Shown: positions 1-3,993 of the stretch, piece by piece
How positions within the stretch are numbered: position 1 is the first letter of the stretch
How the letters are laid out: each line of letters begins with the position of its first letter
Origin: an uncultured Bacteroidota bacterium
Lineage (GTDB): Bacteria > Bacteroidota > Bacteroidia > NS11-12g > UBA9320
Direction of reading: 5' to 3'
Length of the DNA stretch: 41,550 nt
Assembly (NCBI GenBank): GCA_913043145.1
Contig: CAJWLP010000011.1
Coordinates: 1-41,550, forward strand
Notes under the pieces: model-generated
Databases searched by the model: none
Seen by the model: the letters and a program-made list of their open reading frames with translations, nothing else
Told to the model about the DNA's origin: nothing
Position numbers and translations under genes: made by a program

Positions 1-4
1 GATG

Positions 5-76
5 TAGCCCGTAGGGGAATCGAACCCCTCTTACCAGGATGAAAACCTGGCGTCCTAGCCGATAGACGAACGGGCC
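5..76 (-). tRNA. tRNA-Glu (anticodon UUC)
   Basis: Read on the minus strand this folds as a standard 72-nt cloverleaf. The 7-bp acceptor stem GGCCCGT/ACGGGCT includes one G-T pair, the anticodon arm is CCAGG-TTTTCAT-CCTGG with anticodon TTC, and the T arm is AGGGG-TTCGATT-CCCCT. The discriminator base is A at position 5. The bases that follow are CATC, so the 3' CCA is not encoded and must be added after transcription. No second tRNA or rRNA is visible beside it within the window. Confidence 0.97.
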
Positions 77-319: not shown

Positions 320-1309
<990 letters not shown>

Positions 1310-1336
1310 AAGTTCAATCTAAGTAAATAATTTAAG

Positions 1337-1366
1337 AAAAGGCCAAAATTTTGTTGGTCTTTTTTA
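1337..1366 (+). terminator. Intrinsic terminator after gap
   Basis: A stem AAAAGGCCAA / TTGGTCTTTT with one G-T pair and a 7-nt loop is followed by a T-rich run through 1370. It lies 27 nt after the GAPDH stop codon and only about 7 nt before the next gene's GTG start, so the next gene starts almost at the base of the terminator. Confidence 0.8.
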
Positions 1367-1376
1367 TTTTTACGGA

Positions 1377-2579
1377 GTGCTTAGTAAGTTAAAGTCTTTG
1401 GGCCCTGGTCTTTTGTATGCAGGTGCTGCTGTTGGGGTATCCCATTTGGTGCAAAGTACCCGTGCAGGTGCTCAATATGGTTATATCCTCATTGTAGCCA
1501 TTATTTTGGCTCATATTCTCAAATATCCATTTTTTGTTTTAGGCCCAAGATATGCCAAGCGGAACAAACAGTCTTTGGTTCATGGTTTTGCTGAAATAGG
1601 CAATTGGGCAATATGGATTTTAGGAATTCTAACAGTCACAATGATGTTTACCATTCAAGCTGCTGTTACTATTGTGACTGCTGGCTTGGTACAAAAAATG
1701 ACTGGACTTGGTCTTAGTTCAGTTAATATTTCAATCATAATTTTATTAACCTGCTTGTGCATTCTACAAATTGGGAAGTTTAAAATACTGGACCATTTGA
1801 TGAAGGTAGTTATGGTCGTTTTATCAATTTCTACTATCGTTGCTTTTTTCTTTTCTTTTCGCACCAATATTGATTTTACCGCGATGACTCAATCTTCATT
1901 TTCATTGAGTGATAATAGTGATTTAAGTTTTCTAGTCACGTTTGTTGGCTGGATGCCTGCTCCACTTGATATTGCTATTTGGCATAGTATATGGGTGTTA
2001 GTCAAACCTGAAAAGCAGAGTTCTGATTCTAATTTTGACTTTAAAGTGGGGTTTTATGGCACGGCATTTTTAGGGATTTGCTTCTTAGTATTGGGTGCTC
2101 ATACTTTGTATCTTTCAGATATTACTTTAGAAGCATCTGCTGGTGGATTTGCAGCTCAACTCATTGATATATTTGTCTCTAACCTCGGAGAAAGTTTTTA
2201 TTGGGTAATTACCATTGCTGCGTTCACAACTATGTTTAGCACTACCATCACATGTTTAGACGCCATGCCCAGGGTGATGGAAGAAATATCTTCTAAATTG
2301 AAATTAAATCAAAAGCTTCATTCAAAATCTTTGTGGCGATATATACTAACTTCAGGGACTAGTATTCTACTTTTATTTTTTGTAAAAGATATGAAGCAGA
2401 TGGTTTCATTTGCTACTACAGTGTCGTTTCTTACAGCACCCATTCTTGCCTGGTTATGCTGGAAAGTTGTAAATAAAGATAATAAATCAATTGCTCTTTG
2501 GTCGCTATTTGAACATAAGCTGGCGATTATTGGTATTTTGGTGCTGAGTATTTTAAGTGTAGTATATCTTCTGTTCTAA
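1377..2579 (+). CDS. Nramp-family transporter lacking the canonical metal motifs
   Basis: This 400-residue protein has about 11 hydrophobic segments and the Nramp opening GPGLLYAGAAVG. Classical Nramp proteins carry DPGN in helix 1 and MPHN in helix 6, and these side chains bind Mn2+ or Fe2+. Here the helix 1 site reads GVSH (residues 20-23) and the helix 6 site reads MPAP (about 193-196), so the metal-binding Asp, Asn and His are absent. The fold assignment is fairly safe but the substrate is not. The start is GTG at 1377, just after the gap terminator, with ACGGAG immediately before it as a possible ribosome site. YqgE follows after 23 nt in the same direction, so the two are probably co-transcribed. 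I see no clear TAnnTTTG element for it. Confidence 0.82.
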   Translation: MLSKLKSLGPGLLYAGAAVGVSHLVQSTRAGAQYGYILIVAIILAHILKYPFFVLGPRYAKRNKQSLVHGFAEIGNWAIWILGILTVTMMFTIQAAVTIVTAGLVQKMTGLGLSSVNISIIILLTCLCILQIGKFKILDHLMKVVMVVLSISTIVAFFFSFRTNIDFTAMTQSSFSLSDNSDLSFLVTFVGWMPAPLDIAIWHSIWVLVKPEKQSSDSNFDFKVGFYGTAFLGICFLVLGAHTLYLSDITLEASAGGFAAQLIDIFVSNLGESFYWVITIAAFTTMFSTTITCLDAMPRVMEEISSKLKLNQKLHSKSLWRYILTSGTSILLLFFVKDMKQMVSFATTVSFLTAPILAWLCWKVVNKDNKSIALWSLFEHKLAIIGILVLSILSVVYLLF

Positions 2580-2602: not shown

Positions 2603-3154
2603 ATGAAACAATTAACGGGTAGAATACTAATTTCTGAGCCATTTATTCAAGACCCCACTTTTGAGAGAAGTGTTGTACTCATGACGGATCATAATGAAGA
2701 AGGTTCTGTTGGATTTGTTCTTAATCAAAAGTCTGATTATTTGGTCAGCCAGTTGGTTCCTGATTTGGCTGATATTGATTTACCTGTCTTTGTTGGTGGA
2801 CCAGTCGAATTAGATGGGTTACATTGCATTCACTCTTATTCAAGTATAGATGATTCATTGGCTTTAAAGAAGAATTTATTCTGGAGTGGTAACTTTGGGC
2901 AGATCATCGAAGGTCTAAAGTCTGGGGAGTATGAATCGAGTAGGTTTAAATTTTTTATGGGTTATAGTGGTTGGGCTAAAGGTCAGTTGCTCTCAGAAAT
3001 TTCAGAAAGATCATGGATAATCGGTGACATTCCCTCAAAAATTATCTTTAATAATGAGATGATGGATAAAAATTTGTGGAAGTATGCTATTCGTTTGAAA
3101 GGGGGCAAGGATGCTTTGCTCGCCAATTCTCCAGCAAACCCTTTGTTAAACTAA
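2603..3154 (+). CDS. yqgE: YqgE/AlgH family protein
   Basis: This 183-residue protein matches the YqgE/AlgH (DUF179) family across its length. It opens with GRILISEPFIQDPTFERSV, followed by the family signature GSVGFVLNQ and the central FVGGPVELDGLHCIH block. Members are small cytoplasmic proteins of unsettled function, linked in some bacteria to regulation of alginate production or to redox stress. It has no signal peptide or membrane segment. The ATG is 23 nt after the Nramp-like gene and no promoter element is apparent between them, so I infer an operon with the transporter. Confidence 0.93.
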   Translation: MKQLTGRILISEPFIQDPTFERSVVLMTDHNEEGSVGFVLNQKSDYLVSQLVPDLADIDLPVFVGGPVELDGLHCIHSYSSIDDSLALKKNLFWSGNFGQIIEGLKSGEYESSRFKFFMGYSGWAKGQLLSEISERSWIIGDIPSKIIFNNEMMDKNLWKYAIRLKGGKDALLANSPANPLLN

Positions 3155-3179: not shown

Positions 3180-3635
3180 ATGGATCATATTTTAATAAAT
3201 TCACACAATATTCTACGTTGGGCAGTTTTACTATTTGGGTTATATGCCATTACAAAATCAGCTCGAGGGCTTTTTTTAAAACAACCGTATTCTCAAAATC
3301 ATAATTTATCTGCCACACTTTTTGTAGCGAGTGTCCACCTACAAATACTGATTGGATTTCTGCTATACATTGCAAGAGGCTGGTCGAATAATTTTAGCAA
3401 AATGGGAGAAATCATGGGAGATTCTACACTCCGTTTTTGGACAGTTGAACACATTTTTGGGATGATATTTGCTGCTGCGTTGGTTCAAATTGGTCGAACA
3501 AAATCTAAGAAATCTACTCAAGATTCAAAAAAGCATAAGCTAGCATTAATATTTTATACCCTTGGTCTATTGACTATAATAGCAGTGATTCCATGGCCAT
3601 TTAGAGGAGAAATAGCTCGATCATTATGGCCATAA
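3180..3635 (+). CDS. Small four-helix membrane protein with helix histidines
   Basis: I do not recognise a named family with certainty. The 151 residues contain four predicted membrane helices, at about 10-30, 43-67, 88-107 and 119-139, joined by short charged loops, with no cleavable signal peptide. Histidines fall in or beside the helices at about residues 9, 53 and 91. That pattern is seen in small b-type haem proteins, but it could also be chance. Similar short proteins occur in Bacteroidota as conserved hypotheticals. It follows yqgE by 25 nt but has its own probable -7 element. The UPF0158-like gene follows after 10 nt and is likely co-transcribed. Confidence 0.75.
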   Translation: MDHILINSHNILRWAVLLFGLYAITKSARGLFLKQPYSQNHNLSATLFVASVHLQILIGFLLYIARGWSNNFSKMGEIMGDSTLRFWTVEHIFGMIFAAALVQIGRTKSKKSTQDSKKHKLALIFYTLGLLTIIAVIPWPFRGEIARSLWP

Positions 3636-3645
3636 GATTTCAAGA

Positions 3646-3993
3646 ATGAGAGAAGAAACATTAAAAACGGTTGCGGGTATTTTAGGAAACGGCTACACAT
3701 GTTTTGTGAACAAACAAACAGAGGAAGTTTTTTCGGCTGAAAACATTTCACTAGCCGAACAAAAAAGTTCAGAATATAAATCCTTTGTTCCCTTAGAGAG
3801 TAAAGTAGTTTTTGGTATAATGGAGGAATTTACTGCTTCAGTAGAAGATTTTTCTAACCAATCAGAATTGATGGAAGCCCTCACATTCGAACAACCTTTT
3901 TCTAATTTTAAGCAGAAAGTTTATAAAATAAATTTAGCAGATGATTGGATTGCCTTTCGAACTCAAAAAATTGTTAAAATTCTTCAAGGTTGA
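3646..3993 (+). CDS. UPF0158-like protein
   Basis: This 115-residue soluble protein resembles the UPF0158 family: an acidic N-terminal half followed by a segment of the form SELMEAL...PFSNFKQKV...DDWIAFR, which corresponds to the family's conserved L-x-x-AL...F-x-x-FK...W-x-x-F block. The function of this family is not established. The start is the first ATG after the previous stop, giving a 10-nt gap. Its stop codon ends only 1 nt from the stop codon of the convergent FAH gene, so there is no room for a terminator between them. Confidence 0.65.
   Translation: MREETLKTVAGILGNGYTCFVNKQTEEVFSAENISLAEQKSSEYKSFVPLESKVVFGIMEEFTASVEDFSNQSELMEALTFEQPFSNFKQKVYKINLADDWIAFRTQKIVKILQG

Follow-up and report, generated by a model that had tools for sequence, protein, structure and literature searches.

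Within the Nramp family, canonical Nramps have been distinguished from Nramp-related proteins, the latter defined as paraphyletic and without the canonical motifs (PMC12873925); according to a figure legend in that paper, the groups beyond the NRMT-like and 'G-motif 3' proteins are entirely uncharacterised. An 'orphan' SLC11 outgroup has been described inside PF01566 (PMC9606685, PMC10606218), and NRMTs are described with the motif DxxG in helix 1 and TxxA/T in helix 6 (PMC8806188). Whether motif-less Nramp relatives carry metals or organic substrates is contested. PxpT is reported to be required for growth of C. glutamicum on 5-oxoproline, on the evidence of mutant growth and from authors who do not exclude metal transport (PMC13274462). 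Overproduction of the motif-less B. subtilis YcsG/MntG raised cellular Mn2+, its operon is MntR-regulated and the protein is reported as a Mn importer (PMC10448178), as is A. baumannii MumT, described as less than 25% identical to reported Nramps (PMC5050338). A 2026 preprint describes one set of Nramp-related sequences as 'likely metal transporters' and reports that the D56G and D56A variants of DraNramp import no Mn2+ (PMC13060092). A legend to an Alteromonas alginolytic cluster lists an Nramp gene (PMC6431674). Here we analysed a motif-less relative with GVSH in helix 1, for which we use the clade label GxSH; this label and GSGE were coined in the present analysis, and rows are called NRMT-like here by their motif. 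In the literature searched, we recognised no characterised or tested GxSH protein.

The gene lies in a stretch of 41,550 nucleotides, the window, from an uncultured Bacteroidota bacterium (contig CAJWLP010000011.1, positions 1 to 41,550). The gene and its surroundings are as follows.

329 to 1309, forward strand: gapA (GAPDH), the upstream neighbour, in lineage-restricted synteny
1335 to 1365, forward strand: terminator-like hairpin with a T-run between gapA and the transporter gene, weak alone
1377 to 2579, forward strand: coding sequence of the putative GxSH-clade Nramp-related transporter, 400 amino acids, GTG start, TAA stop (open reading frame list, Pfam Nramp)
2603 to 3154, forward strand: yqgE/algH (DUF179), the downstream neighbour, in lineage-restricted synteny

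Among 11 genes checked, the start codon at the same place was GTG in eight and ATG in three. The protein matched the Pfam Nramp model PF01566 at 42.7 bits, above the gathering cut-off of 29.8, and scored 40.2 with the NCBIfam Nramp model, under its cut-off of 50; the Pfam scan returned no other domain. The GxSH clade sits at the edge of PF01566, because the Nitrosomonas (L099) and Pseudoalteromonas (L111) proteins were unmatched and the Neisseria protein (L109) reached only 30.0 bits. With either the single protein or a 62-row profile as the query, no PDB chain was found by sequence at E ≤ 1, so the tie to solved Nramps comes from the fold and from profile-profile comparison, in which hhalign gave a probability of 97.6. 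No second Nramp match was found at E ≤ 0.001 in the genome of the window (80% complete). Compared with four close relatives, the gene gave dN/dS values of 0.071/0.68, 0.094/0.99, 0.100/1.58 and 0.108/1.59 (about 0.06–0.10), and is thus under purifying selection.

An AlphaFold2 model built from 62 sequences had a pLDDT of 87.7 and a pTM of 0.87. DraNramp was its best match, both in Foldseek (query TM 0.81) and in VIA (Z 37.8, rmsd 3.4, 375 aligned residues), and EleNRMT came close behind (query TM 0.75; Z 34.6, rmsd 3.5, 376 aligned). Amino-acid carriers followed little behind DraNramp, with Z scores of 33.2 for SLC7A10 and 32.4 for AdiC, and the YcsG model 9a52 was also among the fold matches. 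The protein is therefore predicted to have the Nramp/LeuT fold. The initial annotation had recognised an Nramp fold signature and length from the letters alone, and the 400-residue reading frame, the Pfam score and the proximity of the model to DraNramp bear this out. Helix 6 was broken at residues 193–197 in this model and was also broken in a second AlphaFold2 model, of a Nitrosomonas homologue, with low confidence at the break in both. By DSSP, helix 1 was one unbroken helix in both models; this is an observation on the models, and for helix 1 DSSP assignments from predicted structures carry little weight. An unbroken helix 1 is unusual for a LeuT-fold carrier.

The residues that set the protein apart from canonical Nramps lie in helices 1, 2 and 6.

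1434 to 1445, forward strand: helix-1 motif G20-V21-S22-H23 in the place of canonical D-P-G-N (alignments; invariant in 62/62)
1521 to 1523, forward strand: K49 of helix 2, Lys in every GxSH, GSGE, GSGEd and GxxD tree row
1950 to 1964, forward strand: helix-6 break W192-M193-P194-A195-P196, which carries one residue more than in canonical Nramps (alignments; AlphaFold2 break at 193–197)
1968 to 1970, forward strand: D198, an acid just past the helix-6 break (59 Asp and 3 Glu in 62 rows)

In both MAFFT alignments GVSH fell ungapped on DPGN, with G20 replacing the Asp and H23 the Asn, as the initial annotation had read it. A forced global hhalign comparison introduced compensating 3-residue gaps, so that D-P-G faced a gap while H23 still paired with the Asn; since the Asp has no counterpart even there and neither MAFFT alignment is gapped, we rejected a misalignment of this motif. 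GVSH was invariant in all 62 aligned homologues (the window protein and 61 of 80 fetched loci), at 55% mean identity. This invariance, together with the dN/dS of about 0.06–0.10, means that the motif is not there by chance.

WMPAP was invariant in the same 62 rows, a figure favoured by selection because GWMPA formed part of one of the two search patterns; among rows found without that pattern, MPAP was present in 13 of 13, and locus L250 has MPIP. Of the two motifs whose conservation in homologues the initial annotation had marked for checking, GVSH is confirmed as invariant, and MPAP is conserved with these qualifications. Its reading of MPAP as the counterpart of MPHN, with the Met as the one ligand that could remain, fared less well. 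When G191 is set on the canonical helix-6 Gly, M193 falls in all three alignments on a Thr that precedes the metal-binding Met by two positions. The Met column itself contains A195 in two alignments and P196 in the third; the canonical His column holds L197 or D198. Because it stands two positions off, M193 is probably not a metal ligand, and the initial statement about a remaining Met probably does not hold. The helix-1 register therefore holds in MAFFT, whereas the helix-6 register proposed at first is doubtful. Taken together, the alignments give good support to the view that no canonical metal ligand remains, and the canonical Mn/Fe site is very probably absent.

Several charged residues within predicted helices are conserved. 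Across the 62 rows, H23, K49 and D295 were each present in 62, D139 and K143 were also conserved, and the R299 column held 57 Arg and 5 Lys, so that basic residues (K49 and R299) are fixed in membrane segments. K49 was absent from the canonical, NRMT-like, PxpT-like, GPGT and GPGS rows of the tree. An acid equivalent to E134 in helix 3 of DraNramp was not conserved: in the helix at 76–109, past residue 76, no column was charged in at least 31 of the 62 rows. G20, H23, the helix-6 insertion, K49, W206, D295 and R299 were shared by all 24 GxSH rows of the tree described below, one of which has Lys for R299.

In a tree of 64 rows, the GxSH proteins formed a 24-row group with support of 100/98. 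In this unrooted tree they shared one side of a 98/95 branch with the GSGE clade (8 rows) and a single long-branched Deinococcus row; the opposite side held the canonical, NRMT-like, PxpT-like, GPGT and GxxD rows. The segment from G191 to W206 comprised 16 residues in 33/33 GxSH, GSGE and Deinococcus rows and 15 in 31/31 others, which corresponds to the one-residue helix-6 insertion. Forcing GxSH into one clade with the canonical rows cost 93 log units (p-AU 2.7e-5), in a test that used 6 of the 31 canonical sequences at hand and groups named after a first look at the motifs. A joint clade with the four NRMT-like rows, which do not include EleNRMT itself, cost 95 log units and was rejected, and one with the five PxpT-like rows cost 41 log units and was likewise rejected (p-AU 8e-7), those rows being named by motif and pxpA linkage rather than by comparison with PxpT. 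The exact p-values are not to be leaned on, because branches are long and the groups received their names after the motifs had been inspected.

A tblastn scan across species genomes (E ≤ 1e-3) turned up 451 loci that encode a relative. The best 80 of these 451, which were kept, were mostly from Bacteroidota, with others from Nitrosomonas, Methylomonas, Leptospiraceae, Spirochaetaceae, Oligoflexia and Thiovulum. As a whole, the GxSH clade ranges over Bacteroidota, Pseudomonadota including Neisseria, spirochaetes and haloarchaea. At E ≤ 1e-20 the profile matched 24 of 198 Bacteroidia genomes, that of the window among them. Within the phylum of Nitrosomonas, at E ≤ 1e-12, a match was present in 19 of 299 genomes, and in 16 of these it fell below 1e-90. 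When these 16 genomes (all but G406) were revisited, the 15 loci refetched held 16 proteins, every one with GVSH, GGSH or GASH; the three weaker matches were other motif-less types. GGSH with MPAP was found in Neisseria gonorrhoeae, Photobacterium and Pseudoalteromonas. Two Neisseria gonorrhoeae 'plasmid' records of ~2.17 Mb (NZ_CP119142.1 and NZ_CP119140.1) look like whole chromosomes filed as plasmids. One genome (G035) has three copies of the GVSH gene, and one Pseudomonadota genome (G489) has a tandem pair of GGSH paralogues in the same orientation (L294, 6150–8831). Within the family of the window, the GVSH gene was present in 25 of 38 genomes, and a strong canonical match in seven, all of one genus (g3) and none with a GVSH gene.

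We then considered the neighbourhood of the gene. A gap of 23 bp separates it from yqgE on the same strand, so that the co-transcription proposed in the initial annotation is plausible from the sequence. The hairpin ahead of the gene was the one found between 1250 and 3700, with 1.3 expected in shuffles; similar sequence was seen by eye upstream of the gene in L003–L007. Conservation of the yqgE neighbourhood turned out to be narrow: yqgE followed the GVSH gene in 18 of 80 loci, all among L029–L048 and thus in the lineage of the window, and in 0 of 60 in L049–L108, with a truncated yqgE-like reading frame in L034 as a nineteenth case. Being confined to this lineage, the link is not functional evidence, and yqgE was dropped as a candidate partner. 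One genome (G019, locus L035) keeps the GVSH gene without gapA or yqgE beside it and has an Lpd-like gene upstream. In the lineage of the window, two small genes follow yqgE, at 3180–3635 (no Pfam family above the cut-off) and 3646–3993 (a marginal UPF0158 match, 21.8 bits against 21.1), with relatives in 12 and 10 of the 80 loci. A tRNA-Glu gene (anticodon ttc; 4–76, reverse strand) lies at the contig end, and the contigs of two congeners (L004 and L005) start at nearly the same distance from the transporter gene.

Elsewhere, GxSH genes stood among scattered housekeeping genes in Bacteroidota and Pseudomonadota. In 11 loci (L065, L066, L072, L074, L076, L079, L084, L089, L095, L104 and L108; genes named by eye), a sigma-70-like gene came before the GVSH gene, and lipA (lipoyl synthase) came after it on the same strand, with a spacing of 28 bp in L065, an order that is lineage-specific. 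These loci were of Flavobacteriaceae type; the fetched flanks of 5 of the 80 loci held an E2 acyltransferase, and an Lpd-like gene lay beside one. A lipoate link was dropped, since these cases came from one lineage or from opposite strands. Five annotated plasmid records with GxSH genes had mixed neighbours and no common theme, and no telling catabolic operon was found around any GxSH gene examined. Scanning of 11 Pseudomonadota loci gave no riboswitch near the gene, the two Rfam matches both being at least 4 kb away. Upstream of 20 genes (15 of the loci GxSH), we found no shared regulator motif using consensus patterns for Fur, TyrR, ArgR, MntR, Zur, Lrp, PurR, TrpR and MetJ; the individual matches, given as raw pattern matches, were an exact ArgR-type palindrome in L286, one-mismatch ArgR and TyrR patterns in L285 and L287, and a few looser ones.

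Since GxSH genes have no telling neighbours, an organic substrate has to be argued through their relatives. For the sister GSGE clade, carbohydrate or sugar-acid genes lay within 4–5 kb in seven of eight plasmid records, as judged by eye on few records. Nearby genes encoded a four-carbon acid sugar kinase, an aldolase and a dehydrogenase (two Streptomyces loci), a UxaA hydrolase (Rubrobacter), GH1 (two Skermanella loci), GH43 (Microscilla) and mannonate dehydratase, an aldolase and IclR (Halocatena); the Roseomonas locus had a siderophore cluster and no carbohydrate gene. As the Streptomyces and Skermanella loci are close pairs, these amount to about five independent cases. Two members, from Halocatena (28.5% identity to the query) and Skermanella rosea, were placed in GSGE by similarity, outside the tree. 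Among seven control records with canonical MntH, picked from 24 listed of 443, one had a carbohydrate gene, three had metal-handling genes and three had neither. The Bacteroidota GSGE genes that were read gave sugar-hydrolase-like neighbours in L301 (by eye) and no carbohydrate neighbour in L302; a search for further members found them in 3 of 16 genomes, the third being L315.

Other motif-less types added to this picture. In 24 of 30 fetched Bacteroidota PxpA loci (L213–L242), a motif-less Nramp reading frame was present, 19 of GPGT and 5 of PxpT type; since flanks were 1.5 kb, the missing cases may be longer-range. Linkage of two motif-less clades (GPGFLTQT and GPGT) to pxpA suggests that a 5-oxoproline carrier was recruited twice or diverged twice. 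No PxpA was found in the genome of the window, which is 80% complete. Among GxxD genes, that of Mesobacillus follows CoA-transferase and thiolase genes, that of Ketogulonicigenium has an iron ABC transporter about 2–4 kb away, and those of Peribacillus and Haematobacter showed no theme.

On balance, and with modest confidence, we regard the window protein as a secondary transporter of a small organic solute rather than a canonical Mn/Fe importer. An organic substrate is suggested by the GSGE neighbourhoods, by the motif-less clades beside 5-oxoprolinase genes and by the published PxpT genetics; the Nramp gene listed in the Alteromonas alginolytic cluster (PMC6431674) may also fit. The protein would be a LeuT/APC-fold carrier working by rocking-bundle alternating access; the solute, perhaps an organic or sugar acid, an amino acid or similar, would bind between helix 1 (GVSH), helix 6 (GWMPAP-D) and helix 8, with the lining residues predicted, and the canonical Mn2+/Fe2+ site would not be used. 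The initial annotation had offered a substrate other than Mn2+/Fe2+ as one of two options, and the loss of the ligands, the rejected canonical clade (p-AU 2.7e-5) and the reported inactivity of D56G DraNramp lend support to that part. Its other option, a non-transporting relative, has become less likely, because the residues that differ from the canonical ones are kept across a broad span of taxa. We consider it improbable that transport has been lost and that the protein is a sensor, a transceptor or a structural membrane protein. The unbroken helix 1 of both models fits such a role, as does the lack of a known substrate, but the predicted models are a poor guide to helix 1, a break is modelled in helix 6, residues of helices 1, 6 and 8 are invariant over several phyla, and no other Pfam domain accompanies the fold.

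A divalent-metal transporter with a rebuilt site, using H23, M193, D198 or backbone carbonyls to bind Zn2+, Mn2+, Ni2+ or another ion, appears rather unlikely overall, with evidence on both sides. H23 and M193 are invariant in the 62 rows and could bind soft metals, Mn import is claimed for the motif-less YcsG/MntG and MumT (PMC10448178, PMC5050338), and a group of Nramp-related proteins has been labelled as probable metal carriers (PMC13060092). The iron ABC transporter near the Ketogulonicigenium GxxD gene points the same way, and the finding that no genome of the family of the window has both a GVSH gene and a canonical match fits replacement of one by the other, but the seven canonical cases come from one genus. 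Against this stand the Gly at the place of D56, the absence of a conserved helix-3 acid, the fixed Lys/Arg in membrane segments, the position in the tree apart from canonical and NRMT-like rows, and the catabolic neighbourhoods of the GSGE clade. Transport of Mg2+ in the manner of an NRMT has very little probability: the Nramp fold and the rank of EleNRMT among the nearest solved structures speak for it, but NRMTs are described as keeping the helix-1 Asp (PMC8806188), which is Gly here, and the joint clade was rejected.

If the preferred reading of an organic solute extends beyond this gene, a tentative generalisation follows, which we rate as possible and no higher: most motif-less 'Nramp' branches would carry organic acids, amino acids or similar, metal transport would be derived in the canonical and NRMT branches, and the GxSH proteins, including that of Neisseria gonorrhoeae, would be one such nutrient carrier. 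Many annotations as 'Nramp family divalent metal transporter', the name given to the GSGE genes on Streptomyces, Rubrobacter, Skermanella, Roseomonas and Microscilla plasmids, would then be wrong, and the direction of Nramp evolution, here from organic solutes towards metals inside the APC superfamily, would become testable. As motif-less Nramp relatives are already a published class, the finding is real and not categorically new; new here are the GxSH clade, its own set of conserved residues and its link to GSGE.

Compared with described systems, the GxSH proteins share PF01566, the LeuT fold and the GPG...AGA.(F/Y)G frame of helix 1 with canonical Nramp/SLC11 proteins such as MntH and DraNramp. 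They differ in having no DPGN or MPH ligands (Asp and Asn of DPGN are present in 6/6 canonical tree rows, against G20 and H23 here), no helix-3 acid, one more residue at the helix-6 break, and K49, W206 and R299 where canonical proteins have small or apolar residues. With NRMTs (EleNRMT) they share the fold and the absence of the canonical Met; the NRMT helix-1 Asp, present in 4/4 NRMT-like rows, is Gly in GxSH, and G20 and H23 do not match DxxG. The 'G-motif 3' proteins PxpT and YcsG (MntG) resemble them in the Gly at the D56 place, and Q26 is shared with the five PxpT-like rows, but their helix 1 reads GPGFLTQT instead of GVSH, and PxpT genes adjoin pxpA, whereas the window gene adjoins gapA and yqgE. 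The GSGE clade, the nearest large clade in the tree, shares the helix-6 insertion, K49, W206, R299 and an acid at position 198; unlike GxSH, it has Glu rather than His at position 23 and no MPAP, and it is often encoded close to carbohydrate or sugar-acid genes, in contrast to the solitary GxSH genes.
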